DNA of 64,000 nt from Benincasa hispida (Eukaryota > Streptophyta > Magnoliopsida > Cucurbitales > Cucurbitaceae). This document shows, one piece after another, positions 6,086-62,099 of this stretch. The stretch spans positions 32,259,997 through 32,323,996 of the forward strand of contig NC_052349.1 of NCBI RefSeq assembly GCF_009727055.1, given 5' to 3'. The notes under the pieces were generated by a model. That model saw nothing but the letters and a program-made list of their open reading frames with translations, was not told the DNA's origin and searched no databases. The first letter of the stretch is position 1. Every line of letters begins with the position of its first letter. The position numbers and the translations under genes are program-made.

Positions 6086-6281
6086 CAAATTTTTTTAAAA
6101 TGATGTTATATACATGATTATTATCTCAAAAAATACTACCAATTGCAATTACTCTTTCTTTTAATACCTTTGATAGTTTTTGGCCCATTCTGATAAGCTC
6201 CAAGAATATAAGATTAATTAACCAAACTCTTTAATTAACTAACCTTTGCTCTAGGGCAAACCCTTATAGACCTATAGTTAC

Positions 6282-10499: not shown

Positions 10500-11654
10500 T
10501 AATGATCATTTTCCTCTTATTAAGACATTTTCGACTTATGTGTCCTACTCCTTGACATTTCTAACACTTAAAGTCTCTATTTCTACCTGTGGGTGCCTCC
10601 ACCTTTGGTTTTTCTTTCGATGAAGACTCCCCTTTATCTTTAGTTTTATCACTTCCTATTTTGGCTTTAAATTTAGAGTCTGTTGATTTGTCACCCTGTT
10701 TCCAAGAAGTTTAATTGGAAAAATTTTTAGAAGCCTCTGAAATTGCTTTTCAACCTTTACTGTAAGGTGCACTAATTCCTTCATATCCTCGTACGCTTGC
10801 AATTCAACACGTTCAGTCACGTCAATATTTAATCCATGAAGAAATTTGGTCATGGTGTTCTTTTCATCCTCATCCATCTCCAATCTTTCCATCAACATCT
10901 CCATCTCCTTGAAATAATCTTCTACACTCTTACTCCCTTGGCGTAAAGCCTAAAGTCTTCATGCACAATCTTTCAAGTAATGTTTTGGCATAAACCGCCT
11001 CTTCATGAGCTCTCTCAATTCTAGCCATGTTTCCACGGGACCCTCCTGACACCTCCTCCGGTTAGAACACACCTTACCCCACCATGTTTGTGCATAACCC
11101 TTAAAATGTGTTATAGAGATAGTTACCTTTTTCTCTTCAAAGAGTTCGTTACCATGAAAAATATGTTCTGCCTCATGTTCCCATTGGAAAAAGTCTTCAA
11201 GATCAGACGTACCATAAAATTTTAGAAATTTAACTTTAATGTTTCCAAAACCTCGATCTCCATGGTGACTTTCTTTTCTACCTCGTGGCCTTCTATTATG
11301 AAAACCCCTTCTTCCTCTCGGCCCTTGCTCTCCTCTTCTAGACCCACCTATAGTAAGGTCAGAGTCAAATTCATTTTGCTTTGAGTCTTTTGCCTCCTCA
11401 GAAGCATCCACAACTCGCCTTTTTAATTGGGTCCTTTCCTTAGCTTGAAACCTTTGTTCTATTTTATCCAATCTTGCATTGATCAAAGTCTCCAACTTTT
11501 GCTCGACTCCCTCAATGAGTCCTTCTTGTAACTGTCCCTGTGGAACAATTCCATTGCCTGACCTTGCTGCAAAACAAAAAAACAAGTGAAAGAAAAAGTG
11601 GACCTCACCAATCACTCCCTCACATGTTTCACTCGATAGGTGATGTTCACTCAT
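10500..11654 (-). pseudogene. Gypsy gag remnant
   Basis: A capsid-like region shows YGTSDLEDFFQWEHEAE and a WW motif (AQTWWGKV) followed by LKELMKRRF-type sequence, typical of the retrotransposon gag family. A zinc-knuckle of the form CX2CX4HX4C is recognisable near 10520-10575, with its first part damaged by a stop. An Arg/Gly-rich linker precedes the capsid region. A stop near 10957 and frame changes inactivate it. Confidence 0.85.
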
Positions 11655-11659
11655 GTTTA

Positions 11660-12565
11660 CACTCTTTTATATAGGCACTCTTTCACAAAAAGGGAATGCT
11701 CTCAAAAGGACAACGAACCATGTCATCAAGGTTAGAAGAGCAAGCCAAAATCAAACCAAGCAAGAATGGTTGTAAAGTGTCAAACTCAAGCAAGAGCTAG
11801 TTGAATTCAACAAAAACGAAATTAGAAATCAAGAACCTAATGTTAAGATCAACCAAACTAGGACATGAAACAACAAGAATATGATATAAAAAAAAAAAAT
11901 TAAGAATCTAATATTCAGAATTCAAAGAATTATGCAAGATGAACAAAGATGGCAAACTACTAGACAAATCAATGATAAAAAGGAAACAGAGAATTAGGAA
12001 TTAAAAAAAGCTCTAATTTTACAAAAACCCCATAGATAAGTGCATTTTTAAAACAACTAATCTTTTCTTATGAATTTTAGCAGCTTGAAACTCATGAAAA
12101 TTGAGCTACTTTCTTCACGTACCTGCTTAAAAAAACAAATTTCACTTCGATTTTCACGCTCCACATCCAGACCCCTTCACACGATTTTCAATATTCTTCT
12201 CACTGTCAATTCTTGTCTCTTTGTTTTTTTTTTTTTGTCTCTACTTTCAATTTTATGCTTTTCAACCAACTTCCTTCTCACTTCTGATTCTTCGCCGCCC
12301 CACTCGATTTTTCACTTTTTCTTCAATTTCGATTACTTTGTTTCTTTTTTTTTTCAATTTCGGTCGAAGCACAGCTGCTTTATTCTTTCTCTTTCTTTTT
12401 TCAATTTCAATCCAGGTCCGTCAGACTTGAATTTTTTTTCCAGTCTTTACACTTATTTTTTCTTTCTTCAAGTAACACAAATAGAACAAAACAAAGTCTA
12501 AACACAAAATTTCTAAAAAGAAACAAATAAAAACTCACGAGATATATTTGATCTAGAGCCCTTAG
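11660..12565. other. Gypsy leader region, no gene
   Basis: This lies between gag and the primer-binding site and would be the untranslated leader of the element. It holds T-rich simple sequence on the plus strand (12210-12460) whose Phe/Ser-rich frames are products of composition. Confidence 0.6.
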
Positions 12566-40389: not shown

Positions 40390-40640
40390 ATTGTTTTCGA
40401 ATAAAGTAAAACGAGTCAACTTATTTACAAATATAGCAAAATGTCACTGTATATGGTGATAGATCCCGATAGATTGAGTGATAGAAGTCTATCACGGGTT
40501 ATCGCTCAATGATAGAAGTCTATCACTATTTACCACGGTTTATCACTAATAGATAGTAAAATTTTGATATATTTGAAAATATTTTTAATAATTTTATCAT
40601 TTAAATAATTACTAAATTTTCTTTCGACATAAAGTTATAT
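40390..40640. mobile_element. Dispersed repeat with inner GATAGAC inverted-repeat module
   Basis: The inner part 40428-40575 has ends CAAATATAGCAAAA and, on the other strand, CAAATATATCAAAA. Between them GATAGAAGTCTATCAC-type palindromes occur. The outer flanks (AATAAAGTAAAACGAG on the left, TTTAAATAATTACTAAA on the right) are also found at 43812-43905, where the inner module is absent. Confidence 0.68.
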
Positions 40641-43559: not shown

Positions 43560-44224
43560 GTATCAACTTAAATCATAAACTAGTAATTATATCCATTAAA
43601 ACCTTAAGCTTTCATAAATATTTAATTTAAATCATGAACTTTCATAAGCGTGTAAATTACTATGATTATTAGTTTAAGGTTTAAATTAATACAACTTCCA
43701 AATTTTAAAGGTACAAATTGATACTTGCCTTAACTTTTTTTTTTTTTTTTTTTTAAAAAAAAATTATCATTAATAAAAGAAATTATTAAAATTTAGGACT
43801 ATTTTCAAATAAAGAAAAATGAGCAAACTTTTTTACAAATATAGTAAAATGTCACTAAAAAATATTTTGAGTAGTTTTAACATTTAAAATAATTACCTAA
43901 AATCTAGGGACAAACATATATTTTCAAGAGAATTTGTCAAAAATGGAAAAATAAGAAAACTATCTACATCATATAGAAAAAAAAATCAATGGAAACAAAA
44001 AAAAAAAGGTTAATGGAAACAACTTCAGTTTTTAAGAAAATTCCAAAACTACCCCTCCACATTTCAATTTTTTTTGCACATATCGCCGATTCACCGATTT
44101 TTTTGACAACTTCAACCACAATTGCAGTCACACCTTCAACTTCGGCTTCAACGACAATTTCAACTTTGGTTTCAATTTAGTATTCCCGATTCAATTCAAC
44201 TGATCGCTGATTTCAATTCATTTT
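43560..44224. other. Spacer with a GATAGAC-less repeat copy
   Basis: Contains the element copy at 43812-43905 that lacks the GATAGAC module, long T and A runs at 43738-43760, and simple CAACTTC-rich sequence at 44100-44200. No gene is supported. Confidence 0.5.
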
Positions 44225-47200
44225 CTTCTTCTTGTTCACACCACTAGGTTTCCATTCTTCTTCGTGGATTCCATCGATCACAGGTACACTTCTTCCACTT
44301 AATTTGAGTTCAAAGCATGCTAAAAAATAGTTTCAATAGAAAAAGGGTTTCGTTTGTGTATACCTTTGTAGATTTCTTCTTGATTCTTGTTGAACTCCAG
44401 GAATTGATCTTCAAATCCTTAGTAGACCACCAAGATGAGCTTCTCTACCATTCTCTTCCTTAGAGTTGAGTGGTGGAACTCTCAATTGAGCTTAATTGAA
44501 ATAGAGAAGAAGAGAGTTTGAGGGAGTTTCATAATTTTATGTGAAAATCAACTTGCATAGGAGTCAATCTCTTAAAATTGAGTATTTTATCATGTAAATA
44601 CATGCGAGCACAACTTGGTTCAACCAATTGACAATCAGCACCAAGAAAGTGGGATATGTGTAACATTTTGGATTAATCCATTAAAACAACTTAAAACTTG
44701 GATTTTCCCACTAACCAGTTCAAATTTAATTTAATTAACTTAACCAAATTAAACTAAAATCACTTTTCTAAAAAATAAATTTTCTAAATTTGAATTTTGA
44801 TTTAATTTAAATAATTAATTAAATAAATTTAATTAATTGATTAATTAATACTCTAATATTAAATATTAAATTAATGAAACACCTAATTCAAACATGAATC
44901 TTATTCATGTGACAAATATTTAAATCAATATTTGAATATCCTGAATTCTCCAATTTCGTTTAATTTCAATAAAATTAAACGTTTAATTATATCGAATATA
45001 AATATCCAAACTCTAAATTGATTTTGAACTTTTCAAATTCAAACTCCAATTTCGAATTTGAACGCTTTAAATTTGCACAATATTCTAATTTAAGGTTTAA
45101 TCTTTTACGAGCTAGTAGACGGTTCTTATGGACCTATAGATCATGAGCTCTAACGATTTGAGATTAATAAGTTAAACTCTTTAACTAGAGTTAATCAATA
45201 TTCGTTAACCACCGAGACATACCACTATAGCTCGATGATTGCACTATCTTCATTGTAGATATATTTATGTCCACTTGATTTTACCATGATCAGTAAGTTG
45301 ATCCTTCACAGGTCGTTTGTATTTACAGTTAGGTTCAAATTACCGTCTTACTCCTGTCAATATATCTTACTCCTTAAGCTCCTATTGATCCTCTATTGAA
45401 TAATTTGTTGGGTTTTATGTCCTAAAACTCGTGGTTTGTAAACATTAAACTAATTCTGAAAATTCAATAAGTTGTTATTGAATATATGAATTGCTTATTT
45501 CGTTTTAGAAATAAATCCAATAAACTAAAAGATCCATGACTATTACATGAGTACTTGAACTTTATATGGAGACATAAAAATGGATCATGTTTGAGTAAAT
45601 AGTTAAAATGGCCTATAGTATATGAATAATATTGGTCGCCTTATTCTGATAACACTATTGGATGCGACCCACTTTGTAGGTGTTACAAAGAGTTATAAAG
45701 TGCTACAAACGAAGTGATCATAATTCGTACATGTGATGACATGAGAAGTGAGGGATTCTGTGCAATGAGTTTGTACATGATTGGACCACGAAATAAGTCA
45801 CTCTTACTTTATAACGTTGTTTACTGTTTAAGACTGACTATTTCAAAGCAATGACTTAGGTAACTTGACCTTAATCCTGAGTTAACTATGAACTCCTATT
45901 TATTTGGGATTATTCTTAGATTTGCATAGGTGATGGTTGACTCAACAGCGCTGGCTCAATAAGCCACCCATTTTAAGGGTAAGACCGGTTAGATAGCTGG
46001 GCACATATGGTGCAAGATGGAATTCACTCCTACCCACTTTAAGGGATAGTAGAGAGGTTGATCCCTTAAGTACTGACTCCGAATTTTGAATAAGGGGCCT
46101 CACCCTCTCATTGGCCCAAAAAGAACTCGGTTTGATGATCGAATCACAAACCAAATTGTTCATTAGAGGATCAATGGGACTTAAGGAACAAGAGGTAATC
46201 TCAAGGGTAAAACAGTCTTTTGACCTAGTCGTTATTATGAACAAGTTGTGAAGAGTTAACTTACTAATCATGGTTATATTGAGTGGACACAATATATCTA
46301 TAGTGAGGGGAGTGCAACTCTGGGCGTTAGTGGAGTGACCTAGTAGTTAACGAATGAGAGTTAATTCGGTGTAAATAGTTTAACCAATTAATCTCGGATC
46401 GTTGGAGCCCATGATCTGTAGGTCCACGAGGTCCCTCTACTCGCTCACAAATGGATTAGTCTTAGAGTAACGTAATAAGTTGATTTGAAATATTCAAATT
46501 AGAATTAAGGAAATTAGTAATTATATGTGATATAATTACACATTTAAATTTTGGAATTAAACAAAATTGGAGAACTGATATTTAAATATGATTTAAATAT
46601 TAAATTCATGAATAGGGATTCATGGTAATGGAATTGGTGACAAATTAATTTAAATATTTGATATTTAAATTANATTACTAATTATTAATTTTGTTATAAA
46701 AATTAATTTTGAATTAATTTTTATAAAATTAATATAATTTTAGTTTTAAATATAAATTAAAAACTGAAATTAAATATTCATTTGAAAAAGAATTTCAAAT
46801 TAAGAAAGAAAAGAAGAAAATTGGAAATGGAAAAGTTGTGACTTTCCCACTTCTTCTCCATTTAGCTTAGTCATTAATCCATTATACTTCAGCTCAATTA
46901 ATTCAAGCTAGAGTTATGATTCATGCAAGGCTATTAGTTGCATGAAAGTCATGCAATATAAGGCTGGATTTTTTAGTGGAAAAAGAGAGAATGCAATTGT
47001 TTCTAAAACTCTAAAATTCCGTGTGTTGAAGAAGAGTTCTTCAAGTTGCTGAAAACCAGTACAATTTCCTCCTAATTCCCTTCAATTCAAGCTTATTTTG
47101 AGTCTCACGACTCAATCTAAGGCACCAAGAGAATAGTAGGGAAGTCATTGTGGTGATTCACGAGCAGAAATCAAGAAGATTGCAGCTAAAGATCTTGAAT

Positions 47201-48091
47201 CAAAGATGCTTCAAAGGTTAGTGTTGAAACTCAAAACTCTATTTTTAGTTCATGAGCATGCTTAGTTTAAATCCAAAATTAGTGAATTAGAATGCTTAAT
47301 AATCTTGTTTTACTTTCGCTGCTTGCTTCCTCATTCCAACACAATTGGTTTATAGTCCAACTAATAAACTATATCCCTTTCGGCCATGAGAGAGCGGGCC
47401 TCCTTTATTTAAGACCAGGAATAAGTACCTTAGGGAACAACCTATCTGCTAACCTTAAAATGGGTAGGAGTGAATTCCATCTTGCCGGACTATATCTCAG
47501 CTATCTATCCGATCTTATCCCTGAAATAGCAGGCTTGTTGAGCAGTGTTGTTGAACTACACTCACCTATACAGATCAAAGGATAATCCCGAATAAACAGG
47601 AGTTCATAATTAGCTCAGGATTAAGATCAAGTTACCTTAGATCATCAATTTGAAATACTCAGTTTTAACAGTAAAAGGTCGTTATAAAGAAAAGTGATTA
47701 TTTCGTGGTCCGGTCATATGCAAAACTCTTTTGCATAAGATGCCCCACTCACATATATCCACATGAACAATTTTGGGATCACATCATTTGAATCAGTATA
47801 CAATGTAGGGCGCATCCATTGTGTCCCTAGAACGAGGTACCCAATCTCATCTATATATTTATAAACCTTTTTGGCTATATACTATAACTTGATCCTCTTT
47901 TATGTCTCTACAAAAAATTAAAGTATTCATACTATAGCATGGATTCGTTTATTAGATTTTATAACATAATGCAATTTCAATTTCAATTTCAATAACCCTT
48001 TTATTGAATAAATTATTTAACAATACTTTTATTAATAAAATAGAATATGTTTCGATGAATACGAACTGCGAGTTTTAGGACATTCCCAACA
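44225..48091 (-). repeat. Outer LTR on minus strand, split by a plus-strand LTR
   Basis: Two parts, about 44225-45405 and 47342-48091, form one minus-strand LTR of the TGTTGGG family: its start TGTTGGGAATGTCCTAAAAC is at 48091. The two parts rejoin in the region corresponding to ATCCTCTAATGAACAATTTG of the other copies. The outer lower end is approximate. The plus-strand LTR at 45406-47341 lies inside it, so both orientations of one family are stacked here. Confidence 0.75.
45406..47341 (+). mobile_element. Solo LTR family A, nested in an opposite-strand LTR
   Basis: Begins TGTTGGGTTTTATGTCC and ends CATTCCAACA, 1936 bp. The flanks TAATT and CAATT agree at four of five bases, a plausible aged target duplication. 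No primer-binding site or coding sequence adjoins either end, so it is a solo LTR. It contains one N at 46673. Confidence 0.85.
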
Positions 48092-48640
48092 TCTTTTTCT
48101 ATCAGGGATAGATAAAGATAGACATCTATCTTTGCCTATATCTTTGTTTTGTCTCTATTTTGTTTTGAATTGAATTCACTACTTTGTATTGTATTGTATC
48201 AGCGAGATAGAACTATTCATTGATAAACAACAATATATAACTATTTTCGTCTATCACTTATCATTGTGATTGGGTATATCGATGATGGACAGAGATAGAA
48301 ATCTATCTCTGACTATCACTAATAGACAGATATAGACGGCTATCTTTGTCTATCTCTTTATTTTGAATTGAATTCACTACTTTCTATTGTATTAGCGACA
48401 TCGAACTATTTATTGATAGACAACGATATATCACTATCTCTATCTATCATTCATCATTGTGATAGAGTGTATTAGTGATAGACATAGATAAAAGTCTATC
48501 TTTGTCTACCATTATCTTTGTCTATCAGTGATGGACAAAGATAGAATTCTATCATTGTCTAGCTGATAGACACTAAATGAGTTCTATCTTTGTCTATCAC
48601 TTATAGACAAAGATAGAACTGTATTTCTATTTATCATTAT
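48092..48640. repeat. GATAGACA palindromic array, block 1
   Basis: Degenerate repeats of TCTATCTTTGTCTATC and TGATAGACAAAGATAGA alternate. They lie just before the MULE transposase N-terminal coding piece. Confidence 0.85.
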
Positions 48641-49028
48641 TGGATATTTTCATTATGAGTTTCTCATATGATCATTTTTTTTTAAATTTTTTTGTAGAAT
48701 ATCATGACTATTCCTATAGTTTTTTATTTTATTTTATGGAGGATAGTGGAATGATTATCACTCCTATGAGAATTATGAGGATGGTGAAATTTTGGTAGAT
48801 GACCGAATAGACTTTAATGGTTTAGTTGGTTTAGTATAGGAAGAGATTCAATTGAATGAGTTGGTAGATTTGTCAGTTTTATTGGATTTTGGTAAAAATG
48901 GTATTCAAACTATGGTTCCAATAAAAAAGGACAAAAATGTTTTTTGGTATCTGATTTTGGCTAAAGATGTAATCAGTAGACATTCATTAGTTGCTCATGT
49001 AAGTCTTTTTTCTTTGGAAGGGTCTTCT

Positions 49029-49667
49029 TGAAGGAACGATGAAGTTCCGCGGCGGAGGCAGGATCATCCTAATTTTATTTTTCACATAATCCCAAATTTA
49101 CATAATAAAAAACATTATGCATTTAAGATTTTATAGCATGCTAATCAGTAGGAAGAAGGAAAGAAAAACCAAAAGTGGGATTTTCCCACTTTTGGAACCA
49201 AACATCTTACTCATATTTGCACTGAAATTCCAGTTCAATAATGAAGGTGGAGCTGGAATTCATGCAGGATGTTGATTTATATGAAAATCATGTAATATAA
49301 CAATGAGATCTGAGTGGAAATGGGGATGCAATTTGTTGCAATTTGTTAACAAAATGTGTTTGAAGAAATGTTCTTCACACTGCTGAAAAACTAGTTCTTT
49401 ACCTCTAATTTCCCTAATTCAAGCTTATTTTGAGTCTCACAACTCAATTTAAGGCTTCAAGAGAATAGTAGGAAAGACCTTGTGGTGGTTCACAACCAAA
49501 GGAAAAGGAGATTGCAGTTGAAGATCATGATTCAAGAGGTACTTCAAAGGTTTCTGTTGAAACTCTCTTTTTAGTTTATGAGCATGCTAAATTTGAAGCC
49601 AAAATTAATGAATTAGAATGCTTAATGATCCTGTTTTTCTTCTGTTGCATGCTTTCTTATTCCAACA
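49029..49667. repeat. LTR-derived fragment inside the MULE
   Basis: The right part (about 49140-49667) matches the last about 530 bp of the family A LTRs and ends TTATTCCAACA. The left start TGAAGGAA resembles the family B LTR end at 17605. It appears to be a chimera of LTR ends. No target duplication is obvious. Confidence 0.65.
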
Positions 49668-49734
49668 CCAAGAATATATTATGACGAGAACATGAAAAGT
49701 CAAGAAGTTTCTTGGTAAGAATTTTATCTTTTCC

Positions 49735-49960
49735 TTATTGTCTATCTATCACTATCTATCTCATATAGACATTGATAGTGTTTTATCTCTGTCCACCTCA
49801 GAAAGACACTGATAGAGTACTATCATTATCTATCCTAGACACTTATAGTACTCTACCTCTGTCTATTTCAATTTGAAGTTCTTAATAGGTAGACTCAGAT
49901 AGACAAGTATGTAAAGTGCCTATCTAAGATAGACAATGATTACCTTTTTTCTTGAATAGT
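49735..49960. repeat. GATAGACA palindromic array, block 2
   Basis: TCTATCACTATCTATC and AGACACTGATAG words alternate, between the LTR fragment and the transposase C-terminal exon. Confidence 0.82.
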
Positions 49961-50559
49961 TGTTAATACTAATTACCTTTATCGTATTTATCTATTAGGT
50001 TGATCCCATTAGCAACACTAAATACAAGATAATGGATGGAGATAAACAGTTCATACTGAAGCTAGACTTGGGATCTTGCAGTTGTCAAGTATGAGATTTT
50101 GAGGAAATTCCATGTGCACATGCACTTGCTGGTCTCTGAATGCTTAATTTAGATATATGTTCTTATGTAGCTAGCCTTTATTATAGAAGAACATTGTCAA
50201 CAACATATAGTGGTTGTGTTCGACCTGTTGAAGTTCATTCGAATTGGAGAGTGGAAGATGATGTAATGAAAACATTGCCTTCTATTGTTAAACATCAAGT
50301 TGGAAGACCTAGAAAACAAAGAATTCCATCTGTAGGTGAATTTAAACGTTCATCAAAATGTACTCCTTGTAATCGTAAAGGTCACAATAGTAGGACTTGC
50401 AAACTTCAACCAATTAATCAAATGATGTAATCATTATTTTTCATTGTAATACATGTGTAGATAGATGGATTGACATTAAAGTTTCTGAATGATATTTCTT
50501 ATTTATTCTATTATTGAGTTATAAATGTTTTTAACTATACCTTACTTTTAAGCCATTAT

Positions 50560-51190
50560 ATATCAGTGATAGGCACAAAAACTGGAATAAGTATAAAAAC
50601 TGTCAGTGATAGGCATCGATAGTGTCTATCTGACTCTATCTACTGATATCAGGTAGGTGAACTTCAACAAGAAAGTCAATAGATAGACACAGATAGACAA
50701 CTATCTGTGTCTATCGTTGTGGATATAGATTATGACATGTATATGAATCTATCAATAGATGGATTTTGATGGATTCAAATACATATAGATAGTTGCAACA
50801 TTGTCTATCACTAAATATACATACCACGATTGTTTTTCTGATTGTACATAACACATTCATTGCAACTACATTCCCCCCTCTTCTAAGTTAAGTTCTTAAA
50901 TGATAGAACTCTATCATTAATTGAAGTCACCCATAATTTAAAAACCCATTCATTAAAGTCTATCACTGTCTATCTCAGATAGACACTGATAATATCCCAT
51001 CTCTGTCTATCTCAGGTAGACAATGATAGTATTCTATCTTTCTCTATCTGAGATAGACACTGATAGTACTCTATCTTTGTTTATCTCAATTTGAAGTAGA
51101 TAAGTACGTATTGATGTTAAAGTTTTTCTAAAGTTCCTAAGACAGATAGTGATACTAGTCTATCACCATGTATCAATAGATAGACTCAGC
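50560..51190. repeat. GATAGACA palindromic array, block 3
   Basis: A dense run of TCTATCTCAGATAGACACTG and related palindromes in the space between the 3' ends of the convergent transposase and DUF1985 genes. Confidence 0.85.
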
Positions 51191-51596
51191 TTGACAACTA
51201 TGTACCAACAAATGCATTATTAAATAAGCATCGATGCACAACAACACAATAAACAAAACATGTTAATTTTATAAATTCCAAAAGTAGTTGACTGTAAAAA
51301 AGTAGAAACAAACTTACAAACTGTAGAAAGTAGAAAACCAAGTACAAAGAAATGTTCAACTTGAAGCTTTACAAACTAGATAAAGTAATTCTATAATCAA
51401 GATTGAGATTGAGACTGAGATTGGGATTTTGGTTGAGATTGAGTTTGAGAAATGTTCAAGCTGAAGCTTGGAATAGTGTCCGTCATCAATTTCATATATT
51501 ATTGAGTTGAAGTTCGATGTTGTACTTCATTCTTCTTCTCAAGTTCCTTCCTTTCAGGTTTCTTCTTAAGAGAGATATTTTTCTTATTTTGATTGT

Positions 51597-51989
51597 CTAA
51601 TGCTTTTTTGGTTGGTTTTCGTTGTTTCTTTGGTCTCTCCTTTTGAAAGTGTGTGTATCTAGCACCTTTGGTCTAAACCTTTTACGCTTCCTTGAAACTG
51701 CTGCTTTCCTTTCTGTTTTTTTTCCTGTTATTTGAATATCTTCATCTACATCCTCTTCACTATCAGTTTCTTCTACAAAAACTTGTTTCCGCTTCTGGTT
51801 TCTTTTTGGTATCTCTTTCTGAAAGAGAATCTCTTCATTCTCTTCTTGAACTTGTTCCTCCTCATTTTGCTCCTCTTCTACTTGATGTTCATCAACTTTC
51901 TTCTGGTTTTCTTGTACTTGCCCGTCATTAACTTTCTCTTGCTCTTCATCTTCTTTTTTTTTTTTTTTTTTTAATTTGCTCTTTTTCAT
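51597..51989 (-). other. Lys/Glu-rich terminal exon of the DUF1985 gene
   Basis: An open frame with poly-Lys start, Glu/Gln-rich repeats (EEEQNEEEQVQEENEE), FVEETDSEEDVDEDIQITGK and a basic tail RKRKRFRPKVLDTHTFK. Acidic stretches with nuclear-localisation-like KRKR are typical of the linker in DUF1985/Ulp1 proteins. A Ulp1 domain does not follow; the spacer after it is the array of block 3. Confidence 0.6.
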
Positions 51990-52090
51990 TGATTTGCTCC
52001 AAGAAAATATTGGAGTTCATAAGAAGAACATTGAATGATGGTCAATGCTAATCATTGTCTATCATCATGTATATAGATAATGATATTTAC

Positions 52091-52257
52091 CTTTTTCTCA
52101 TTTCTATATTTTGATTTTTTTTTTCTCTTATTTGGTTCCTTTTTTTTTCATCTTTTACTTCATCTTCTTCTTCTCCTTTATCAGTTTCAGCACCTTCTTT
52201 GACTTCATCTTTTTCCTTTCTTATTTCAATTTCAGCATCTTCATCAACTTAATCTAC
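52091..52257 (-). other. Exon A copy 1
   Basis: Acceptor GCAG, then a Glu/Lys-rich frame parallel to exon A copy 2, with a stop (TAA) at its third codon where copy 2 has GAA. It ends at a GTAAAT donor. 167 nt. Confidence 0.65.
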
Positions 52258-52299
52258 CTGCAATCATATGATAGAACATAAGAATCTTAAAAAATTTAA

Positions 52300-53117
52300 T
52301 ATTCAGATAGAATGTGATACTATCAGTGTCTATCCACTTAGAGACTGGTAGTAGTCTATCTTTGTTTGTCAACTTTTGTATTTGAACAAAAACTAGCTTA
52401 AGAAAATAATCAAACCTAAGGCAACTCAGCTAGACAACTCAGATAGATAATGATGGAGGACTATCATTGTCAATCCCAAATAGCCATTGATAGAGGACTA
52501 TCAGTGTAGAAAGAGATAGATCTCTATCAGAGTCTATCTCAGATAGACACTGATAATAGTCTATCACTATCTATCCCAAATAGACACTGATAGTAGTCTA
52601 TGTCTGTCTGTCAGCTCTTCTATTTGAACAAAAAGTATCTTTAGAAAAGAATCATACCTCAGGCAACTCAGATAGACAACTCAGATATATAGTGATACAA
52701 TCAAACCTCAGGTAACTTAGACAAAGATAGTGATAGAGAACTATCATTGTCTAACCCAGATAGATAGAGATAGACCTTTATTAAAAAAGTCTATCTTAGA
52801 TAGACACTGATAGTAGTCTATCTTTGTATGTCAGCTCTTCTATTTGAACAAAAAGTAACTTAAGAAAAGAATCAAACCTTAGGAAACTCAAATAGACAGT
52901 GATACAATTAAACCTCAGGTAATTTAGATAGACAAAAACAGTGATAGAGGACTATCACTGTCTATCCAGATAAACATTAATAAAGGACTATTAATGTCTA
53001 TCCTAGATAGACCTCTGTCATAGTCTATCTCAGATAGACACCTATAGTTGTTTATTTCTATCTGTTAACTCTTCTATTTGAACAAAAAGTATCTTAAGTA
53101 AAGAATCAAACCTCAGG
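52300..53117. repeat. Higher-order repeat of GATAGACA array plus splice-site relic
   Basis: A unit of about 217-243 bp repeats at least three times. Each contains CTTCTATTTGAACAAAAAGT (52613, 52830 and 53070 regions), AGAATCAAACCTCAGG and a run of GATAGACA palindromes. Read on the minus strand, CCTGAGGTTTGATTC corresponds to the exon B donor region (TGTAAGGTTTGATTC), so the unit looks like an exon-end plus intron module. Confidence 0.8.
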
Positions 53118-53122
53118 CAACT

Positions 53123-55111
53123 TGTTGTGTTTTATGTTGTAAAACTTGTAGTTTTACAAATTAAACATATTCTATTATCAATAAAAGATGTTATTCAACA
53201 TTTCTTCAATAAAGATATCGAATCTATTAATTGCATTTGTAAAGTCTAAATCCAATAAACTAAGATCCATGACTATTACATGAATATTTGAACTTTATGT
53301 AGAAACATAAAGATGGATTAAGTTCGAGTAAATAGCCAAAATGGTCTATAGTACATGAATAAGGTTGGGTGCCTTATTCTGGTAACACTATTGGATGCGG
53401 CCTACTCTGTAGAGATTACAAGTTGTTGTAAAGGTACTACAAACGAAGTGATCCTGATTCGTTCATGTATTGAGATAAGAAATAGGGGCGTCCTATGCAA
53501 TGAGTTTGTATAAGATCGGACTAAGAAATAGGTCACTCTTACTTTATAACGTTGTTTACTATTTAAGACTGATTATTTCGATTAGATGACCTAGGTAACT
53601 CGATCTTAATCCTAAGTTAACTATGAACTCCTGTTTATTCGAGATTATCCTTAGATTTTCATGGATGAGGGTTGGCTCAATAGCGTCGGCTCAATAAGCC
53701 TTCCCATTTCAGGGGTAAGACCGGGTAGATAGTTGAGGATATAGGGTGCAAGAAGAAATTCACGCCTACCCGATTTAGGGATAGGAGAAAGGTTGTTCTC
53801 TTAAGTACTGAATCCACGTATTGAACAAGGGGCCCGAGAGGGATTTGTTTTAGTGATTGGATCTTAAACCAATTGTTCATTAGAGGATCAATTGGAACTT
53901 AAAGAACAAGACATAATATCGAGGGTAGAACAACACATTGACCCAGCCGGTATTACGAACAATTTGTGAAAGGTCGACTCACTAGTGATGGTTAAAATAT
54001 GTAGATACAAACATATCTACAATAAGGAGAGTGCAACATCGAGCTATAGTGGTGTGACTCGATAGTTAACAAATATTGATTAATTTGGTCTATAGAGTTT
54101 AGCCAATTAATCTTAATCGTTGGAGTCATGTCTGTAGGTTCATAAGATCCCTCTACTGGCTTGTAAAACATGAACACTTTGAATTAATAAATTGAGTGAA
54201 TTTGGAATAATATCAATTTGAATTGTTCAGATTGAAGTTCAATTTGAAAATGTTCAAATGGAAAATAGGGATTTGAGTTTAAATTAGTTCAAATTCAAAT
54301 TAGGGTTTGCACAATTATATTTAATATAATTAAAATTAAACAAAATTGGAAAGTGTATAACATTTAAATAATGATTTAAATATAAATTACATGAATAAGA
54401 TTCAGGTTGAAAATTTAATGTATGATTAATTTGATATTTGATATTAAATTAATTAATTAATTAAATATATTTAATTAGTTATAAATTCAAATTAATTCCA
54501 ATTTTAATTCAATTAGAGAAATTGGATTTTGATAAATTATGAATTGATAAAATCAGGTTTTAATTAATTCAGAATTAATTAAAATAAATTGAAATTTTGA
54601 AATAAAAGAGAATTTTGAAAATTGAATTTCAAAGTGGGTTTATCCCATCTTTGAAGCTAGTAGGAGGTGTCCCTCCCTCGTACACACACAATACCACCTT
54701 CAATTGTTAAGTAGTTACTGGCTTTGGAGTGTCCTAAGATGGTTTGCATGCTTGAGAGTGATAAAAACACTCTAAAATTGAAGAAGAAAGAGGTTAATCA
54801 GTTGGAAAAAGTTTATGCTTCATTCATCTTCTTCTCACACAAAAACCCACAAAACACTTACCAAATTCACTCAAATCTGAGTTCCACCACTCAAATTCAA
54901 GGCTGAGAATAGGCGAGAAGACCTCTTGGTGCTTCATGGACTGATTTGGAGCTGAATTGAAGTGAAGAGCAACTTGGGTTTGAAGATTTCATCATAAAAG
55001 GTATGTAACTTGAAACCCACTTGAATATGCATGCTTTAGAACTCAAATTAAATGTAATTAGAGTGCTTACTGATTCTATTTGCTTCCACTACATGATAAT
55101 GTATTCCATCA
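53123..55111 (+). mobile_element. Solo LTR family A with exact target duplication CAACT
   Basis: Begins TGTTGTGTTTTATG and ends ATTCCATCA. CAACT stands directly before (53118-53122) and after (55112-55116). Removing the element joins CAGGCAACT to AAGATAGAC, as in intact array units. Length 1989 bp. No internal region adjoins. The end base change (CATCA instead of CAACA) shows modest age. Confidence 0.93.
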
Positions 55112-55344
55112 CAACTAAGATAGACGATGATACAATCAAACCTTAGGTAACTTAGATTGACAAAAAAAAATGATAGAGGACTATCAGTGTCTATCTCAGA
55201 TAGACAGAGATAGACCTTTATCAGAGTCTATCTCAAATAGACAATTATAGCAGTCTGAGATAGACTATGATAATGTTCTATCTCTATATGTGAACTCTTG
55301 TATTTAAACAAGAGATAGCTTAAGAAAAGAATGAAACCTTAAAC

Positions 55345-55436
55345 AATTCTTGTGTTTTGGGTGTTCCCAAATCTACAGTTGCAATTGAATCCAAATCATC
55401 TTATGTTTGAAGTTGTTGTGTTTGCATCTCAGTTTC
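55345..55436 (-). other. Exon B copy 1
   Basis: Same sequence as copy 2 with a stop (TAA where copy 2 has CAA) after LQT and a weak donor (GTTTAAG). It reads ETEMQTQQLQT and then DDLDSIATVDLGTPKTQE. Confidence 0.72.
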
Positions 55437-55543
55437 CTACAAGAAAACATGTTATTATTTTCTATATAAGAAAGTAAGAAATTTAAAATACATAATATTA
55501 AGATTGACAGTGATAGAGGATTGTCACTGTCTATAATACATAC

Positions 55544-55700
55544 AAGTCTTTCTTTCCTTTTGTCTCTCACTTTTATTCTTTTCTTTTTCAACTTCTTCTA
55601 CTTCAGCTTCTTTTTCTTCTTTGTCAATTTCAGCATCTTCTTTGACTTCATCTTCTTCCTTTTCTGTCTTAATTTTAACGTCTTCTTCAACTTCATCTAC
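55544..55700 (-). other. Exon A copy 2
   Basis: Acceptor GCAG, then VDEVEEDVKIKTEKEEDEVK and further Glu/Lys-rich sequence, ending at a GTATGT donor. It is 157 nt long and open. It is homologous to exon A copy 1 at 52091-52257 and to the reversed copy at 59915-60000. A partial third copy of its 3' end lies near 56097-56140. Confidence 0.75.
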
Positions 55701-55866
55701 CTGCAAGCATGATAGAAAGTAAGAATCTTAAAAAACTTAATATTCAGATGGGCTGTGATAGAGGACTATCACTGTGTATCTCAGATAGACACTGATATTA
55801 GTCTATCTCTAACTGTCAACTTTTGTGTTTGAACAAAAATAGCTTAAGAAAAGAATCAAACCTTAC

Positions 55867-55960
55867 ACAACTCTTGTGTTTTGGGTGTTTCTAAATCAAT
55901 AGTTGTAATCCGATCTAAATCATCTTGTGTTTGAAGTTGTTGTATTTGCATCTCCGTTTC
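55867..55960 (-). other. Exon B copy 2
   Basis: Bounded by an acceptor (TTGTAG) and a GTAAGG donor. It reads ETEMQIQQLQTQDDLDRITT and then IDLETPKTQEL, with an open frame. It is 94 nt long and nearly identical to exon B copy 1. Confidence 0.75.
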
Positions 55961-56878
55961 CTACAAGAAAATAATTTGTTATTGTTTTCTATCTAAGAAT
56001 CTATTGTTTTCTTTCTAAGAAAGTAAGAAACTTAAAAATCATAATATTAAGATAGATAGTGATAGAGGGTTATCACTGTTTATTATACATACAAACCTCT
56101 CTTTCCCTCTACCTCTCATTTTGAACTTGGCTCTACTAGGAAAAAAAATTAATTTGTAAATGTATGGTTATATTTATTAAAATGTAACAAAAAAAAAAGT
56201 AAGAAACTTAAAAAAATATAATATGAAGATAGTATATAACAATACAAATACTTATCGAAGATAGATATGTTATTGCATAGTCAACCATTGTATCAATATC
56301 ATCGTTTTCTTCCAAAATTCGAAGGCTACAATAAGGCGGTTTATTTTTTTCCACACCTTCTTCATGCTCTTTTTCTTTCTGTTATTGTCGTTGTAGAAGA
56401 TTTTCAAATGGAAATCTACTATTTAGGTTTTCCATAATTGACCTCAACATTATTTTGATTTCTTCTTGGCTTTGTTTCAAAACATTTTGTTCTTCTACTA
56501 TTTCTATTGGCCTTTTCTTATTTCACTAATTTATTTCATTATTTTATTTGCTCCTCTTTCTCCAATTTATTCGTTTTTTTCTCGGTTCATTTGCCTCCTT
56601 TTCTCCTTTTTTTTTCCTTCTCCTTTTCCTACTATGCCTCGAGTTCTATGAAATATTTGAAAGTTGATTGGGATTCTTCTTTTATTGGACGCAGTGGTGT
56701 CATGCAAAACTATAAGTAAATAGATATTAAATTATTAGAGGAAAAAAAGTAGCAACATCAATGATAGACAATGATAGTAGTCTATCACTGTCTATCAGTG
56801 ATAGACAGGGATAGAACTCTATCACTGTCTATCTTTAAAGTGATAGACAATGAAAATGTTCTTATTTAACGAATTACT

Positions 56879-57543
56879 TACATCTTCTGTTTTGAAAATT
56901 TCTCATTTAGAGTCTTCCACTCATATGACTCAAAACACTCGCATGTGATGATTCTTGGACCTTCGATTCCAAGATTCCTTTTAAATCCAACATCCAAATC
57001 GGAAAGTTTTGGGATTGTCTCAAAAGTCCAATAAACTAATGCTAATGAGAATCCTTGAAAATAGACAACATCCTTCTCAGTATATGATGCTCTTTTAAAG
57101 AATTGATAGGTCAAGGTATAAAATAATCTTCCCCATGGATAGTTTTTGAAGACTTGTTCATTGTCCAAAATGTCTAGATGTTTTAAATCAATATGGTTGG
57201 TTGTTGTTAGGGGATTAAAAGAGCTTCTAGGATGTAGAGATTGGCTAATTTAACTTTCAAATAGTCTTCCTCATCGCGTAATGCTTTAAAAGTTCTCTCT
57301 ATATCTCTCCTAGTTATATGATCATCATGAACAAAATAAAAAAAAAACATTTATAAGTTTTGACATTTTTCTTTCTCCTAGATCTAATTGAGGGAATTTG
57401 TGACCTTTTAATCCAGTTATTAAACAAAATACCTTCAATCCAAATTCTGCTATACGACCATTAAAGTTGAATGCTAAGACATTTGACTTCTTTATATAAC
57501 ATTGCCTTCTTACTAAGTAGTTGAGGAACCAAAAATAGGTCAT
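56879..57543 (-). pseudogene. DUF1985 domain exon
   Basis: The minus strand encodes SNVLAFNFNGRIAEFGLKVF, CLITGLKGHKFPQLDL, then RRDIERTFKALRDEEDYLKV and LANLYILEALLIP. After a break near 57205 it continues with LDILDNEQVFKNYPWGRLFY, the diagnostic NYPWG motif, FSLALVYWTFETIPKL and GPRIITCECFESYEWKTL. It ends at a GTAAG donor near 56880. The break near 57205 (frameshift or base loss) is the main defect. Confidence 0.85.
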
Positions 57544-57629
57544 TTAAAACTTGAGGAAGAATTGTTTCATCTAATTTTATTCTTATCAAATTCAACACCT
57601 CTATACTAAAGTACAAAATAACTCTTAAA

Positions 57630-57965
57630 GGTATGTTTGGGCAAAGACTATCATAAGTATATAATAATCACCTCTTGCTATAGTAAATACTATTTTGTAT
57701 TCCCCAATTAGATACTGTCAATACTATTTCAAAACCCCATTTGCTATAATATTTACTATTTGCTACAGTTTTTACTATTTTACATTCATCACTTTTTATT
57801 CTTTACTACCATGTTTATTATTTCTTTCTCAAACTAAAATAGTTTACACCTCAAACATATACTATTATAACTCAAACTAAAATAATCTATAGCCCATACA
57901 CAAACTATTACAACCCAACTATGATAACTTATGACTATAATAACCAACTCATTGCCCGAACACCC
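57630..57965. mobile_element. MITE with TIR GGTRTGTTYGGGCAA
   Basis: The left end GGTATGTTTGGGCAAAGAC and the reverse complement of the right end GGTGTTCGGGCAATGAG form a terminal inverted repeat. The interior is AT-rich with repeated TACTATTT words and non-coding. It is 336 bp, lies just upstream (minus strand) of the DUF1985 exon, and the end sequence recalls PIF/Harbinger-type MITEs. Confidence 0.7.
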
Positions 57966-58079
57966 CAAAAGTTTCTATTATCGTTTTCCATAATTAATTC
58001 ATGTTTCACCTATTGAAAAAATATATTTAACAATATGTTAGAAAGTAAAATTTGCATAACACCGATAACTAATAAGATA

Positions 58080-59155
58080 ACTATCAATAAAATCATTATG
58101 TATTATCTATTGATAGGCATTGATAGTACTCCATCTCTATCTATCTTAGATAGACAATGATTGAATTCTATATATCACTAATTATCTTAGATAGACAAAG
58201 GTAGTATTCTATCTCTATCTATCTCAGATAGACACTGATAGAATTCTATCTCTGTCTATCTCAATTCAAAATTTTAATAAATACACTCAAATAAACAAGT
58301 ATCTATTAAATAAGCATCAATGCACAACAAGACAATGAATCATAACACTATCTACCAACAAAAAAAAAAAAAATAGAGTGCAATATACAAACTAATATTA
58401 CTATTTATCATTGAAGTCTATCATTGTCTATCTCAAATCTATCACTGTCTATCTCAGATAGAGAAAGATACTATTATTTCTCTGTCCATCTCAAATAGAC
58501 AATGATATAACTCTATCACTGTCTATCTCCGATAGACAAAGATAGTATTTTATCTCTGTCTATTTAGATAGAGACTGATAGAGGACTATCACTGTTTATC
58601 CCAGATAGACACTGATAGTACCCTATCTCCGTCTATCTCAATTTAAAGTGATCAATAGATACATTCAAATAAAAGTATCTATTAAATAAGCTATCAACAA
58701 AGCATGAAACTATCTACCAATAACAAAAAAATATAGTGTGCAAATCATATACAAACTAATATTACTATTTAATTCTATCTCTGTCTATCTCAGATAGACA
58801 ATAATAGAACTTTATCTCAGATAGACAATAATAGAACTTTATCTCTGTTTATCTCATATAGGCAGAAATAGTATTCTATCTCTTTCTATCTTAGTATTTG
58901 TGTATCGTAGATAGATAGAGATAGAGATAGACAAGTATGTATTGATGTTAAAGTTCTATTGATACATGGAGATAAATAATGAACAAGACATAAAACTATC
59001 TACCAATAACAAAAAAAAAAAAAAAAAAAACATTTAGAGAGTGTAAATCATTAACACTATCTACCAACAATAATCAATAATCTACACAATATTTAGTGGT
59101 TCTGTCACTATCTATTTGTGATAGATAGTGATAGAACACTATCACTATCTATCAC
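58080..59155. repeat. GATAGACA palindromic array, largest block
   Basis: About 1.1 kb dominated by TGTCTATCTCAGATAGACA and near variants, interspersed with AAATAAGCATCAATGCACAA-like spacers that also occur near 51220. The spacer repeats (58300-58340, 58680-58760) show that it too is a higher-order repeat. Confidence 0.85.
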
Positions 59156-59914
59156 AACTACTTCATTTTTTCCTTTTTTTCTCTTCAGATTTTTTCTCTT
59201 TTCTTTTGCTCTGCTTATTGATGATTCAACTTTCATTGTGTTCCTTCCTTTTCCTTTGCTTCCTTTGTTTGTTGATGATTCAGCTTTGATCGCTTTTTAT
59301 TTTTTGCTTACCATCTATTTAAACAAAGTTAGGTTTAATAAGGTTTGATAATTATGATTAAATGGAAGAGTTGATGAAAAGAAAAGAAAAGAAAAGAGAA
59401 TGATTATAACCTCGAAGAGTTGATTTGATAATAGACTGTAAACTTGAAGGAGAAGCAACAAAAGATTTAGCAGCAATAGGAGAAATAGATTGAGCAGTAG
59501 CGACAGAGGAAGAAGAAGATGATGATGAAGATGAAGCAACGGAAGAAGAAGAAGTAATGAAAGAAGAACAATCGGTGAGATAGATGACGATAGATTGTTA
59601 TAGTAAACTGTTTGATGAAGAAAAAGTCGTTGGAAAAAGACGTGGGAAGAAGAAGGGGCGGGCGTGGGCAATATCGGGCTGATTGATGGATAATCCGATT
59701 AATCGTAATTAATCAGTTGAGTTGTGGGTTATCTGCATATGGGTTGGGAACATTTTTTATATTTCACTATCGTGGGTTAGACTTTTTTTTCTATTTATTT
59801 AATTCATTTTTGGACTGGATTCAAATTTACTATTGATGTAAATAATTTGAACTTTTTTTTTTATTACTTTTGAAACCTCCCTATCTTCCAAAAAAAAAAA
59901 AAAAAAAAAAGAAG
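59156..59914. other. MULE edge region, no gene seen
   Basis: T-rich then GAAGAAG-rich sequence without a supported gene. The minus-strand frames with many Leu and Ser codons reflect simple sequence. A terminal inverted repeat of the MULE could not be identified. Confidence 0.5.
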
Positions 59915-60000
59915 AAGATGCTGAAACAGATAAGGAAGAACAAGAAACTGAAGTAGAAGAATTTGAACCAGAAGAAAAAAAAAAAAAAAAAAATAAAAAA
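59915..60000 (+). pseudogene. Exon-A-like fragment in reversed orientation
   Basis: The plus strand reads EDAETDKEEQETEVEEFEPE, closely parallel in both DNA and protein to exon A copy 2 on the minus strand (EDAEIDKEEKEAEVEEVEKE). It is followed by A-rich tracts to about 60060. It lies about 170 bp before the helicase start codon, so MULE-derived sequence reaches into that gene's promoter or 5' UTR. Confidence 0.65.
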
Positions 60001-60166
60001 GAGAAAGAAGAAAAAAGAAAAAAAAGGAAAAAAAAAGAAGAGCAAAATAGATACAAACGCAAACATAGAGGCGGAGAGGGACTGACCGTAAATAAAGTGA
60101 AATGAACTCGGGCGTTTTTATCTCTCTCTTTATTAATTGCTTTTGGGATCTCCGTGTCCGTGTACA

Positions 60167-61958
60167 ATGGCTCCAAGGAAGAAGCAACAGCAGCAGCCGA
60201 AGCAGAAGCAAAACAACCGAAAATCCAATACAAGTTCCTCGACCTCCGATCCTCGTCCTTCTTCGTCCGGTCCAAAGCTCAATATCTCCGCCGAAAACGA
60301 GACTCGTCTCCGTCGTCTCCTACTGAGCTCCGGCCGCTCCACTCCATCGGTCAATTCCGCAGATGATTCGCTCTCAAAGGTCCAGAAGGTCAAGAAGCTT
60401 AAAGCCGTTTACGAGAATCTCTCATGCGAAGGTTTTACCAATGATCAAATTGAACTGGCACTCTCCACTATCGGGGTAACTTGCTTTTCAATGTTTTTAA
60501 TTTTGCTAAGGAACATTTTAGTATTTCCTTCAGCTTTCTCGCTTTATATGTTGTTCTAGTTACGGTTGCTTTGGTTTTTGAGACGGTTGTTCATTCTGGT
60601 TAAATTGGTTCCTGATTAAAAAAACATCATGTGGGTAACAAAATTGAAGAGTGCAGAATGAAGGAAGTGTTGATGGATCGTTTTTTACCAATTGGTTCTT
60701 TTGTTCAACAAATTGTAGAATTAAAATGAAATTGAATTATGCGTGAGTGGAATTTTATTTATTGGCATTTTGGCAAAAGCACTTGTGTTTCCTTTATTCA
60801 TTTTCGTGGAGTAGGTTGGATAACCGAGCCAACGACTTGCATCGTCTGTTTAAAATTGCAGGTTCTTCATAGTTACAATCGATAAAAAAAATTTAAATAC
60901 GCACTAATTGACTTTATCAAACATAGTATGAAATTTTAACTCGTAATTAGGTTCTTTCAATGCGAGGCACATTTAGGATCATTCTTCTTTTCGGTTTATT
61001 TCGTAGGCTGCAAGCTGAACTTTACTTATTTGCTTAGGTTCCGTAGGTAGGAGATCTATGGAGTAAAAAGGCCATTAACATAAAAGATAGATATTCTAGG
61101 GACATCTCTCACCAGCGTAAAATAAGAATTTATTTGTATTGGAAGATTTCTTCTTCCTTAGGGGCCGATAAAATTAGAACTCTTTTCTTTAGTGTTAAGG
61201 CATTTGAATGTGCTTTAGGACTGGAAATCAAATGTAATATATTTTGTAACTACTGCTCAACATCTTTACATGCCAATTGAAAAGTTTCCATATGATAAAA
61301 TAAATTCTATCTGCTGCCAGTTTTCTGAAATTGTTTTGTTTTACTTTCATTTACTATATTCAACTTTTATTTGACATCTATGGTCGTCTAACTAATTTGG
61401 CCATCTCGATATGGATTGTAGCCTAGATTCCTGAAAAATTTGTAGTTCCTTGTTACGATCTTTGACCATGTATATATCTCAATAAGTGGCCCAATTATCA
61501 ACATCATCATCATCATTATTATTTATCTCAAGTAGGATGGTGCTACATTTGAGGCTGCTCTTGATTGGTTATGCTTGAACTTGCCTAGTAGTGAGCTTCC
61601 ATTGAAATTTTCAAGCGGAACTTCTCTGCATACACATGAAGGTACGTTATGTTTTGCCTATTGGTTTCATAGAGTGGTGTCTGTTAACATTTTCAAGCTT
61701 ATTGACTTTCAGTTAATGCAAATGATTTTCAGCATTTTATGCTATTGTCCCGTTATACAATTTCCAGGTGGTTCTGTTCGTATTCTACATACTGCACAAA
61801 AAGACTGCCCTTCTATGGGAGTCCAATCTTCCAAAGATAAAGATAGAGACAAAGACGTTCCTGTTATATTGAATAGGCGTAAAGATGATGATAAACTAGA
61901 TTTGTTCCAATCATCCCAAGCTGAATGGATCAAACAGTATGTGGAACAACAAGAAGAG
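60167..61958 (+). CDS. DExH-box RNA helicase DExH7-like, N-terminal exons (partial)
   Basis: Three exons: 60167-60475, 61536-61641 and 61768-61958, with GT-AG introns and continuous phase (606 nt, 202 codons). Exon 1 begins MAPRKKQQQQPKQKQ, a basic Gln-rich tail, then LNISAENETRLRRLLLSSGR and KLKAVYENLSCEGFTNDQIE. Exon 2 carries TFEAALDWLCLNLPSSELPL. Exon 3 ends SSQAEWIKQYVEQQEE. This matches the N-terminus of plant DExH7, related to animal DHX29/DHX57 helicases, where the UBA-like part precedes the helicase core. Plant proteins are about 1450 residues, so most is missing. No helicase motif is seen up to 64000: either intron 3 is long and TE-filled, or the gene is broken. The function in plants is poorly defined. 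Confidence 0.9.
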
Positions 61959-62099
61959 GTGCACAAAAGAAGTTTGATTAATACTACATCTATTCTATTA
62001 TTGTCAGCTCAAATTTAATGATCCAATGATGTTGTTAATATCCAAGAAATATTTCTGCGAACTTCTCCGTCACCTTTTCCTCCTTTGATTTGTAGTTTG

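Follow-up and report, generated by a model that had tools for sequence, protein, structure and literature searches.

A multicopy wax gourd MULE with a DUF1985 gene and palindromic non-coding arrays: a probable VANDAL/VANC-like element in a cucurbit

The 64-kb stretch of wax gourd (Benincasa hispida) DNA analysed here, hereafter the window, contains remnants of a MULE transposase, a DUF1985 gene and arrays of a short palindromic word, and it raises the question of whether these parts belong together and what the arrays could be for. A reading made from the sequence alone had proposed a composite, Ulp1-type MULE of about 12 kb, at 48092-60060, with its gene embedded in the arrays. The embedding was borne out: 49 of the 50 GATAGACA/TGTCTATC octamers of the window lie inside 48092-60060, and dinucleotide shuffles of the block (n = 200) gave a mean of 0.67 octamers and a maximum of 4.

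The possibility that the transposase and the DUF1985 gene are chance neighbours was rejected. Between the matches in the wax gourd genome of the SWIM exon of the transposase (40 scored of 201 candidate places) and those of the DUF1985 exon (40 scored of 109 candidate places), there are 11 transposase/DUF1985 pairs no more than 25 kb apart, against a chance expectation of 0.115. All 11 are arranged tail-to-tail and none in any other orientation, indicating that the transposase remnant and the DUF1985 gene are parts of one element. That the wax gourd block is one composite MULE, as first proposed, is therefore near certain. The copy in the window is dead and old, and it is one member of a multicopy wax gourd family. 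Its limits and two of its inserts are as follows.

43929-59882, no strand assigned: whole element, a MULE with a DUF1985 gene; its length, with inserts counted, is about 15.9 kb, and each terminus is uncertain by a few bases
43929-44295, plus strand: left end, degenerate terminal inverted repeat (TIR), matching the left ends of sister copies L022 (E 3e-33) and L010 (84% over 197 nt)
44296-48090, no strand assigned: LTR-retrotransposon-like insert between the left end and the remainder, absent at this place in sister copies
53123-55111, no strand assigned: solo-LTR-like insert, with a 5-bp duplication, CAACT, at 53118-53122 and 55112-55116
59660-59882, minus strand: right end, from alignment with L012, L014 and L023

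By alignment, four of the 20 fetched copies (L010, L019, L020, L022) share the left end near 43929 with the window, and three of the eight copies examined (L012, L014, L023) share the right end near 59882; a search for the right end gave none for L020 or L022. Outer borders are thus shared between copies, as expected by the sequence-only reading. The right end lies near 59882, and the left border that the reading gave had to be moved. Position 48091 was rejected as a border, since it is the end of an LTR-type insert, four sister copies extend leftward, and the left end of the window copy itself lies at about 43929. This insert (3.8 kb) resembles LTR-like sequence at other loci and is one of three within the element, together with 49035-49690 and 53123-55111. 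The TIR is about 40 bp long and imperfect. Its score was reached by none of 300 shuffles for the pairs L020-L014, L020-L023, L022-L023 and window-L023; scores were weaker for the remaining end pairs, some being at shuffle level, and the weak or failing pairs include all those with L045. MULEs typically make target-site duplications of 8-11 bp. A candidate target-site duplication of the window copy, TATTTTCAA / TATCTTCCA, was read by eye and matches at 7 of 9 positions, and the ends of L019 showed no clear duplication.

The left half of the element contains the transposase gene and its arrays:

48091-48640, plus strand: GATAGACA array lying 5' of the transposase gene, 7 octamers at 48117-48591; seen in all 6 copies that have the N-terminal exon
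48747-49028, plus strand: N-terminal MULE transposase piece with one TAG stop; 82-91% identity in L010, L019, L020, L022 and L024
49035-49690, plus strand: LTR-like fragment where sister copies have the DDE part, 83-85% to 47084-47342
49712-49998, plus strand: array-filled transposase intron, with GT at 49712 and AG at 49998 read off the sequence; 5 of 7 copies carry arrays at this place
49999-50427, plus strand: C-terminal transposase exon with a SWIM zinc finger (PF04434) and a zinc knuckle, interrupted by in-frame TGA codons
50620-51170, no strand assigned: array between the two genes, 9 octamers at 50623-51052

Both plus-strand ends of a MULE transposase, noticed in the sequence-only reading, were recovered. 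The SWIM domain scores 30.9 bits in the window when TGA is read through (cut-off 19.6). The N-terminal piece matched no Pfam family; the sister copies with which it shares sequence identity run on into a transposase, and it was assigned on that ground. No DDE domain was found between the two pieces in a six-frame Pfam search of 48091-59882; the sequence 1358-2950 of L010 is missing there from the window copy, and the sister copy L028 has a MULE domain scoring 55.2 bits.

The DUF1985 gene converges on the transposase from the minus strand:

51400-52016, minus strand: C-terminal charged part in open frames; 72-88% identity in seven other copies
52040-53117, minus strand: repeated short acidic coding segments (families D5, D7 and D11) and array-filled introns, 9 octamers at 52056-53033
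55112-56060, minus strand: more acidic coding segments (D5, D8, D11 and D12) and array-filled introns
56750-56860, minus strand: array in the intron adjoining the DUF1985 exon, 5 octamers; at least one in 19 of 21 copies
56881-57628, minus strand: DUF1985 coding region, broken in the window copy; Pfam core 57112-57507
58100-58930, no strand assigned: array upstream of the DUF1985 gene, 13 octamers at 58149-58926; present in 7 of 8 copies

Read through its stops, the DUF1985 core scores 34.2 bits (E 3e-8), just below the cut-off of 35.1; its open 123-aa piece scores 17.3 bits by itself, and a sister copy, at 48.7 bits, is above the cut-off. The label "Ulp1-type" was not supported for this copy: the six-frame Pfam search of 48091-59882 found DUF1985 and SWIM, and no Peptidase_C48 (Ulp1 protease).

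What, then, are the arrays? Across the 20 sister copies fetched, the repeat unit measures 37 bp and has two dyad axes: the offsets from GATAGACA to TGTCTATC are +26 (41 times) and -11 (44 times), and the direct spacing is 37 (60 times). A period of 37 bp is likewise seen in the window arrays. The unit reads roughly GATAGACAnTGATAGnnnTCTATCnnTGTCTATCtca and contains four GATAG half-sites. The arrays occupy fixed non-coding sites, 51 copy-site tests being positive (6/6, 5/7, 6/7, 8/8, 19/21 and 7/8), at a density of 3.6-16 octamers per kb in the non-coding compartments, compared with a single octamer in 14,456 bp of exons. In a literature text search with six array strings, the papers listed all matched through the shortest string, tgatagacac, and through no longer one.

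Two further lineages of DUF1985 MULEs in the wax gourd genome were compared with lineage A, that of the window element. The proteins of lineage B (3 loci) are 40-43% identical to those of A, and their word is related to the A word but different: GATAGACA occurs 1, 2 and 0 times in these loci and GATAGCTT 4, 8 and 2 times, whereas five A sequences have GATAGCTT 2, 1, 0, 0 and 0 times. The B half-sites are also mainly non-coding (7.9 and 12.7 per kb, against 1.6 and 0 per kb in coding sequence), and L038 has the convergent gene order of lineage A. Lineage C, at 51% to A, is closer than B and has retained the A word. The arrays thus look intrinsic to the element rather than captured. The proposal that the element "took up" a satellite was rejected as the main reading, since the word is fixed at the same non-coding sites in most sister copies examined, is nearly absent from exons and differs in another DUF1985 lineage.

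We consider it probable (about 0.65), by analogy, that the wax gourd element is an anti-silencing element of VANDAL/VANC-like type, with the dyad-symmetric 37-bp unit as its target. The DUF1985 protein, acting like VANC, would bind the repeated word both in the element that encodes it and in related copies, and would strip silencing marks there, with loss of methylation. With silencing lifted, the transposase would be expressed and the family could move. Tandem duplication would spread new versions of the word, so that word and protein would change together between lineages. Several observations speak against this reading. The half-sites recur every ~9.25 bp and not with the 10.5-bp helical period; the array is missing before the SWIM exon in 2 of 7 copies and beside the DUF1985 exon in 2 of 21; the unit occurs in dispersed form too, since of 66 listed places 52 are not within 15 kb of any listed family member; TIR scores are weak or fail for several pairs of ends; and, since lineage C shares the A word, a single word change is seen, in the three B loci.

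Three other explanations have to be weighed against the VANDAL/VANC-like one. The arrays may be transposase-binding or structural repeats, hairpin-forming like the subterminal repeats of other DNA transposons and unrelated to the DUF1985 protein, and both the dyad symmetry of the unit and the MITE-like sequences of the window, whose ends are similar to the element's right end and enclose related palindromes, would agree with this. However, the arrays spread through introns and the space between the genes across about 12 kb, avoid the exons and are not crowded at the ends, so that we regard such a role as unlikely. We also give little credit to a neutral minisatellite, that is, functionless slippage in an old transposon whose non-coding DNA is under no constraint: tandem repeats expand easily, array size at one site varies from 0 to 16 octamers depending on the copy, and the window copy is dead, but one word fills five or six separate compartments per copy and a different one extends across the compartments of lineage B. 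Were slippage to act independently from site to site, the compartments would not all come to share one word.

It is very improbable that the element is an Ulp1 MULE of the KAONASHI/CUMULE type whose protease exon was lost and which acquired a satellite. The presence of DUF1985 with a convergent MULE gene would suit such an origin, and so would the report of CUMULE from melon (in the accessible text of PMC5299730) and a melon DUF1985 protein with 65% identity over 93 aa, whose structure prediction (mean pLDDT 46.9) was discarded. Against it stand the absence of Peptidase_C48 from the six frames of 48091-59882, although other copies may carry such an exon, and a word that is intrinsic and changes with the lineage.

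The palindromes are not confined to the MULE. The window contains MITE-like sequences, at 5880-6110 and 40400-40590, whose ends resemble the right end of the element and which carry GATAG palindromes inside. They differ from the MULE in their length (about 0.2 kb) and in having no genes, and resemble it in end sequence and palindromes. The sequence ATATTTACAnnnATAGCAAAATTT has five matches in the window, including the element's own right end, against a shuffle mean of 0.27; no published family was identified for the MITE-like elements. We tentatively suggest, as a possibility that we hold with some doubt, that the DUF1985 protein, lacking Ulp1, reads the palindromic GATAGACA...TGTCTATC as a putative symmetric site for a dimer or tetramer, and that the dispersed GATAG-palindrome MITEs are its non-autonomous targets, kept for the anti-silencing word. 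If they are kept because they carry that word, a single epigenetic switch encoded by a transposon would account for a whole class of dispersed repeats and give a reason for the scattered GATAG palindromes of the wax gourd genome.

If the VANDAL/VANC-like reading is true, sequence-specific anti-silencing by transposons would extend to a crop family distant from Arabidopsis, and its target unit there would be new and symmetric. The wax gourd genome, with its many DUF1985 genes (150 scored of 1345 candidates), would then provide a natural panel for finding the protein part that sets the target word, a matter that PMC5735166, in its accessible text, leaves to future study.

Among known systems, the KAONASHI (KIU) MULEs, described with Ulp1 domains in the accessible text of PMC13317346, and CUMULE, also from a cucurbit, resemble the wax gourd MULE in that they, too, have an additional DUF1985/Ulp1-type gene. 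They differ from it in the Ulp1 domain, absent from 48091-59882, and in the arrays, of which the accessible parts of PMC13317346 and PMC5299730 make no mention. The combination had been thought undescribed. In fact, the layout is known from Arabidopsis VANDAL/VANC, where, according to the accessible text of PMC5735166, the DUF1985 protein VANC removes methylation and binds to motifs repeated in tandem within introns and upstream regions; what we have not found described is a cucurbit version of this layout whose unit is palindromic. Unlike the published VANC words, which are not palindromic, the wax gourd unit is dyad-symmetric (37 bp, four GATAG half-sites), a difference that counts against the VANC-like reading. 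The wax gourd element also differs from Arabidopsis VANDALs in its cucurbit host and in that no third gene (VANB) was identified. No DUF287 was seen in the six-frame Pfam search of 48091-59882. In other respects the two agree. Like VANDAL21 and VANDAL6, the wax gourd family is a MULE with a DUF1985 protein and a SWIM-type transposase. The variable regions of VANC carry tandem peptide motifs (PMC5735166, accessible text), and the wax gourd DUF1985 gene has repeated acidic coding segments, a likeness by description. VANDAL words are short and lie in tandem repeats (same source), and they differ between related elements, as in VANDAL21/VANC21 and VANDAL6/VANC6 (PMC5735166 and PMC10398659, accessible parts); VANDAL TIRs are degenerate (PMC10398659, accessible part). 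The wax gourd element likewise has short tandem words in its introns and upstream regions, nearly absent from exons and different between lineages A and B, and a short, degenerate TIR.

The window lies at C1:32259997-32323996 of a 913-Mb assembly. Within it, 49 of the 50 occurrences of the array octamer GATAGACA/TGTCTATC fall inside 48092-60060, while shuffling gave a mean of 0.67 and a maximum of 4 (200 shuffles), which bears out the claim of the sequence-only reading that such arrays pervade this block. The array unit is 37 bp long and has two dyad axes; by reading, it contains four GATAG half-sites in the order ++--, spaced by 10, 9, 10 and 8 bp. The parts of the MULE that could be recognized, and a piece inserted in it, are the following:

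57112-57507, minus strand: Pfam core of the DUF1985 gene (34.2 bits, E 3e-8; cut-off 35.1)
48747-49028, plus strand: first piece of the MULE transposase gene, without a Pfam match of its own
49999-50427, plus strand: SWIM/zinc-knuckle piece of the MULE transposase gene (SWIM 30.9 bits, a TGA being read as W)
53123-55111: solo-LTR-like piece with a 5-bp duplication, CAACT

A six-frame Pfam search of 48091-59882, read through stops, found neither the MULE DDE domain nor the Peptidase_C48 (Ulp1) domain, and the "Ulp1-type" label is not supported for this copy. An LTR-like fragment other than the solo-LTR-like piece occupies the spot of the DDE-region parts of the sister copies, one of which (L028) has a MULE domain at 55.2 bits. 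The window copy is dead.

When the DUF1985 and SWIM exons were used as DNA queries against the genome, they gave 40 scored matches among 109 candidates and 40 among 201, respectively. At least 11 DUF1985-SWIM pairs, counting that of the window, lie no more than 25 kb apart among the matches listed, versus 0.115 expected by chance, and all 11 are tail-to-tail, with no other orientation. The proposed association of the transposase with the DUF1985 gene thus recurs elsewhere in the genome.

To this single-element interpretation belong also its outer ends. Besides the window, 39 DUF1985 places were listed; we took the left 10 kb of the 20 that scored best, and the right side for 8 of these 20. A left terminus reading (G)nAAATTGTCAAAAATGGAAAAATATGC, or nearly so, is shared by 4 of the 20 copies (L010, L019, L020 and L022), the left sides of the remaining ones being interrupted by other insertions, truncated, or followed less far. 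The window has the same left terminus at about 43929, a 3.8-kb LTR-type insert splitting off the remainder, and on the right the homology to three further copies (L012, L014 and L023) stops at about 59882, so that outer borders are indeed shared. Between them, the termini make up an inverted repeat that is short and degenerate: its score was equalled in 24 of 1000 shuffles for the window's own ends (5 of 300 with other trimming) and reached in none of 300 for several sister end pairs, other pairs, including all those with copy L045, being no better than weak. No target-site duplication could be established at the element ends. Directly beyond the right end lies a poly-A-rich stretch, 59891-60040, that partially matches the acidic exon 55571-55663 in inverted orientation (76%, 93 nt). 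About 290 bp to the right of the element begin plus-strand open frames (60137-62018) that resemble 5' exons belonging to a host gene (MAPRKKQQQQ...), which may encode a DExH-type helicase. By eye, minus-strand frames at 7600-11666 resemble pieces of an LTR retrotransposon polyprotein.

Octamers by compartment in 21 sequences (the window and 20 copies), each compartment counted where its anchor exon is present
600 bp before the transposase N-terminal exon: 9.2/kb, 6/6 copies
300 bp before the SWIM exon: 11.4/kb, 5/7 copies
800 bp after the SWIM exon: 3.6/kb, 6/7 copies
600 bp beyond the C-terminal exon of the DUF1985 gene: 7.1/kb, 8/8 copies
140 bp of intron beside the DUF1985 exon: 16.0/kb, 19/21 copies
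1500 bp upstream of the DUF1985 coding region: 6.1/kb, 7/8 copies

The exons (four sets, 14,456 bp) contain a single octamer. Array size is variable, with 0 to 16 octamers upstream of the DUF1985 coding region depending on the copy. The octamer is absent from one of the 20 stretches taken, L025, and occurs 2-4 times in each of L011, L016 and L028; in these four, a different sequence adjoins the DUF1985 exon.

The Pfam DUF1985 model scored 150 places of 1345 candidates, all 150 above the cut-off. Outside the lineage of the window element and its sisters (lineage A), four DUF1985 places were inspected, two of them just 2.3 kb long. Lineage B (L037, L038 and L047) has a DUF1985 domain at 94.2 bits in L037, a convergent MULE gene at 57.0 bits in L038, and a DUF1985 protein 40-43% identical to that of lineage A. 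Its arrays are made of ATCAnTGATAGC-type words: GATAGCTT occurs 4, 8 and 2 times in the three loci, versus 2, 1, 0, 0 and 0 times in five lineage A sequences, and GATAGACA occurs 1, 2 and 0 times. The half-site TGATAG is common to both lineages, and half-sites are denser in non-coding than in coding sequence (7.9 versus 1.6/kb in L038; 12.7 versus 0/kb in L037). Lineage C (L048), whose protein is 51-52% identical to that of lineage A, retains the A word, with four octamers in 2.3 kb that include one full dyad unit. These counts indicate that the array word differs between A and B and is the same in A and C. On contig C7, part of a Benincasa hispida protein annotated as a pescadillo homolog shows 96% identity to a lineage B DUF1985 protein (33% of the query), owing either to an actual fusion or to a gene model that joins two genes.

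Beside the gene pair, the ends, the placement and variable size of the arrays and the different word of lineage B, all of them direct observations, we infer a mechanism in which the DUF1985 protein would bind the array word, with demethylation and mobilization as its further putative steps. That the arrays are instead transposase-binding or structural repeats seems unlikely to us. We give just as little credit to neutral minisatellites, since what independent slippage least explains is one word across five or six compartments per copy and another word across the compartments of lineage B.

Genome-wide, each strand holds 235 occurrences of the 34-bp unit pattern, and none of the pattern read backwards. 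Among the matches listed, which reach into contig C4 and comprise 66 distinct unit places, 14 have a listed family match no more than 15 kb away, versus 0.48 by chance; they are 12 of the 32 one-orientation places and 2 of the 34 both-orientation places. The other 52 of the 66 listed, not near any listed family member, could be family members outside the listings, MITEs or of another kind, since the listings covered just 150 of 1345 candidates for DUF1985 and 40 of 201 for SWIM, and the window itself carries MITE-like elements with related palindromes. Two such elements of about 0.2 kb (5880-6110 and 40400-40590) contain GATAG palindromes between CAAATATAGCAAA-type ends, and a third end-like match is found at 43829, 100 bp to the left of the MULE.

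According to Hosaka et al. 2017 (PMC5735166), the VANC protein of VANDAL MULEs combines DUF1985 and DUF287 domains, has tandem peptide motifs in its variable regions, and binds to short words within tandem repeats of non-coding DNA, in VANC21 and VANB21 introns and upstream of VANA21, with loss of methylation as its effect. Sasaki et al. 2023 (PMC10398659) add that the TIRs are degenerate and that there is overlap with targets of RdDM, and a 2026 review (PMC13317346), which cites Sasaki et al. 2022, mentions Ulp1-bearing relatives (KIU). In the literature searched, 5 papers mention DUF1985, none of them on cucurbits to judge by the titles, and no description of a cucurbit case of such an element was found. 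The 2022 paper reportedly deals with how these systems diversified in eudicots and with the helical periodicity of words, so that some of what is described here may already be covered there. A melon relative of the A-type DUF1985 protein (65% identity over 93 aa) shows that Cucumis also has A-type proteins. Set beside VANC by the published descriptions, the wax gourd element has the VANDAL/VANC anatomy; it differs in that a third gene was not identified, in having no DUF287 match, in its cucurbit host, and in the dyad symmetry of its 37-bp unit.
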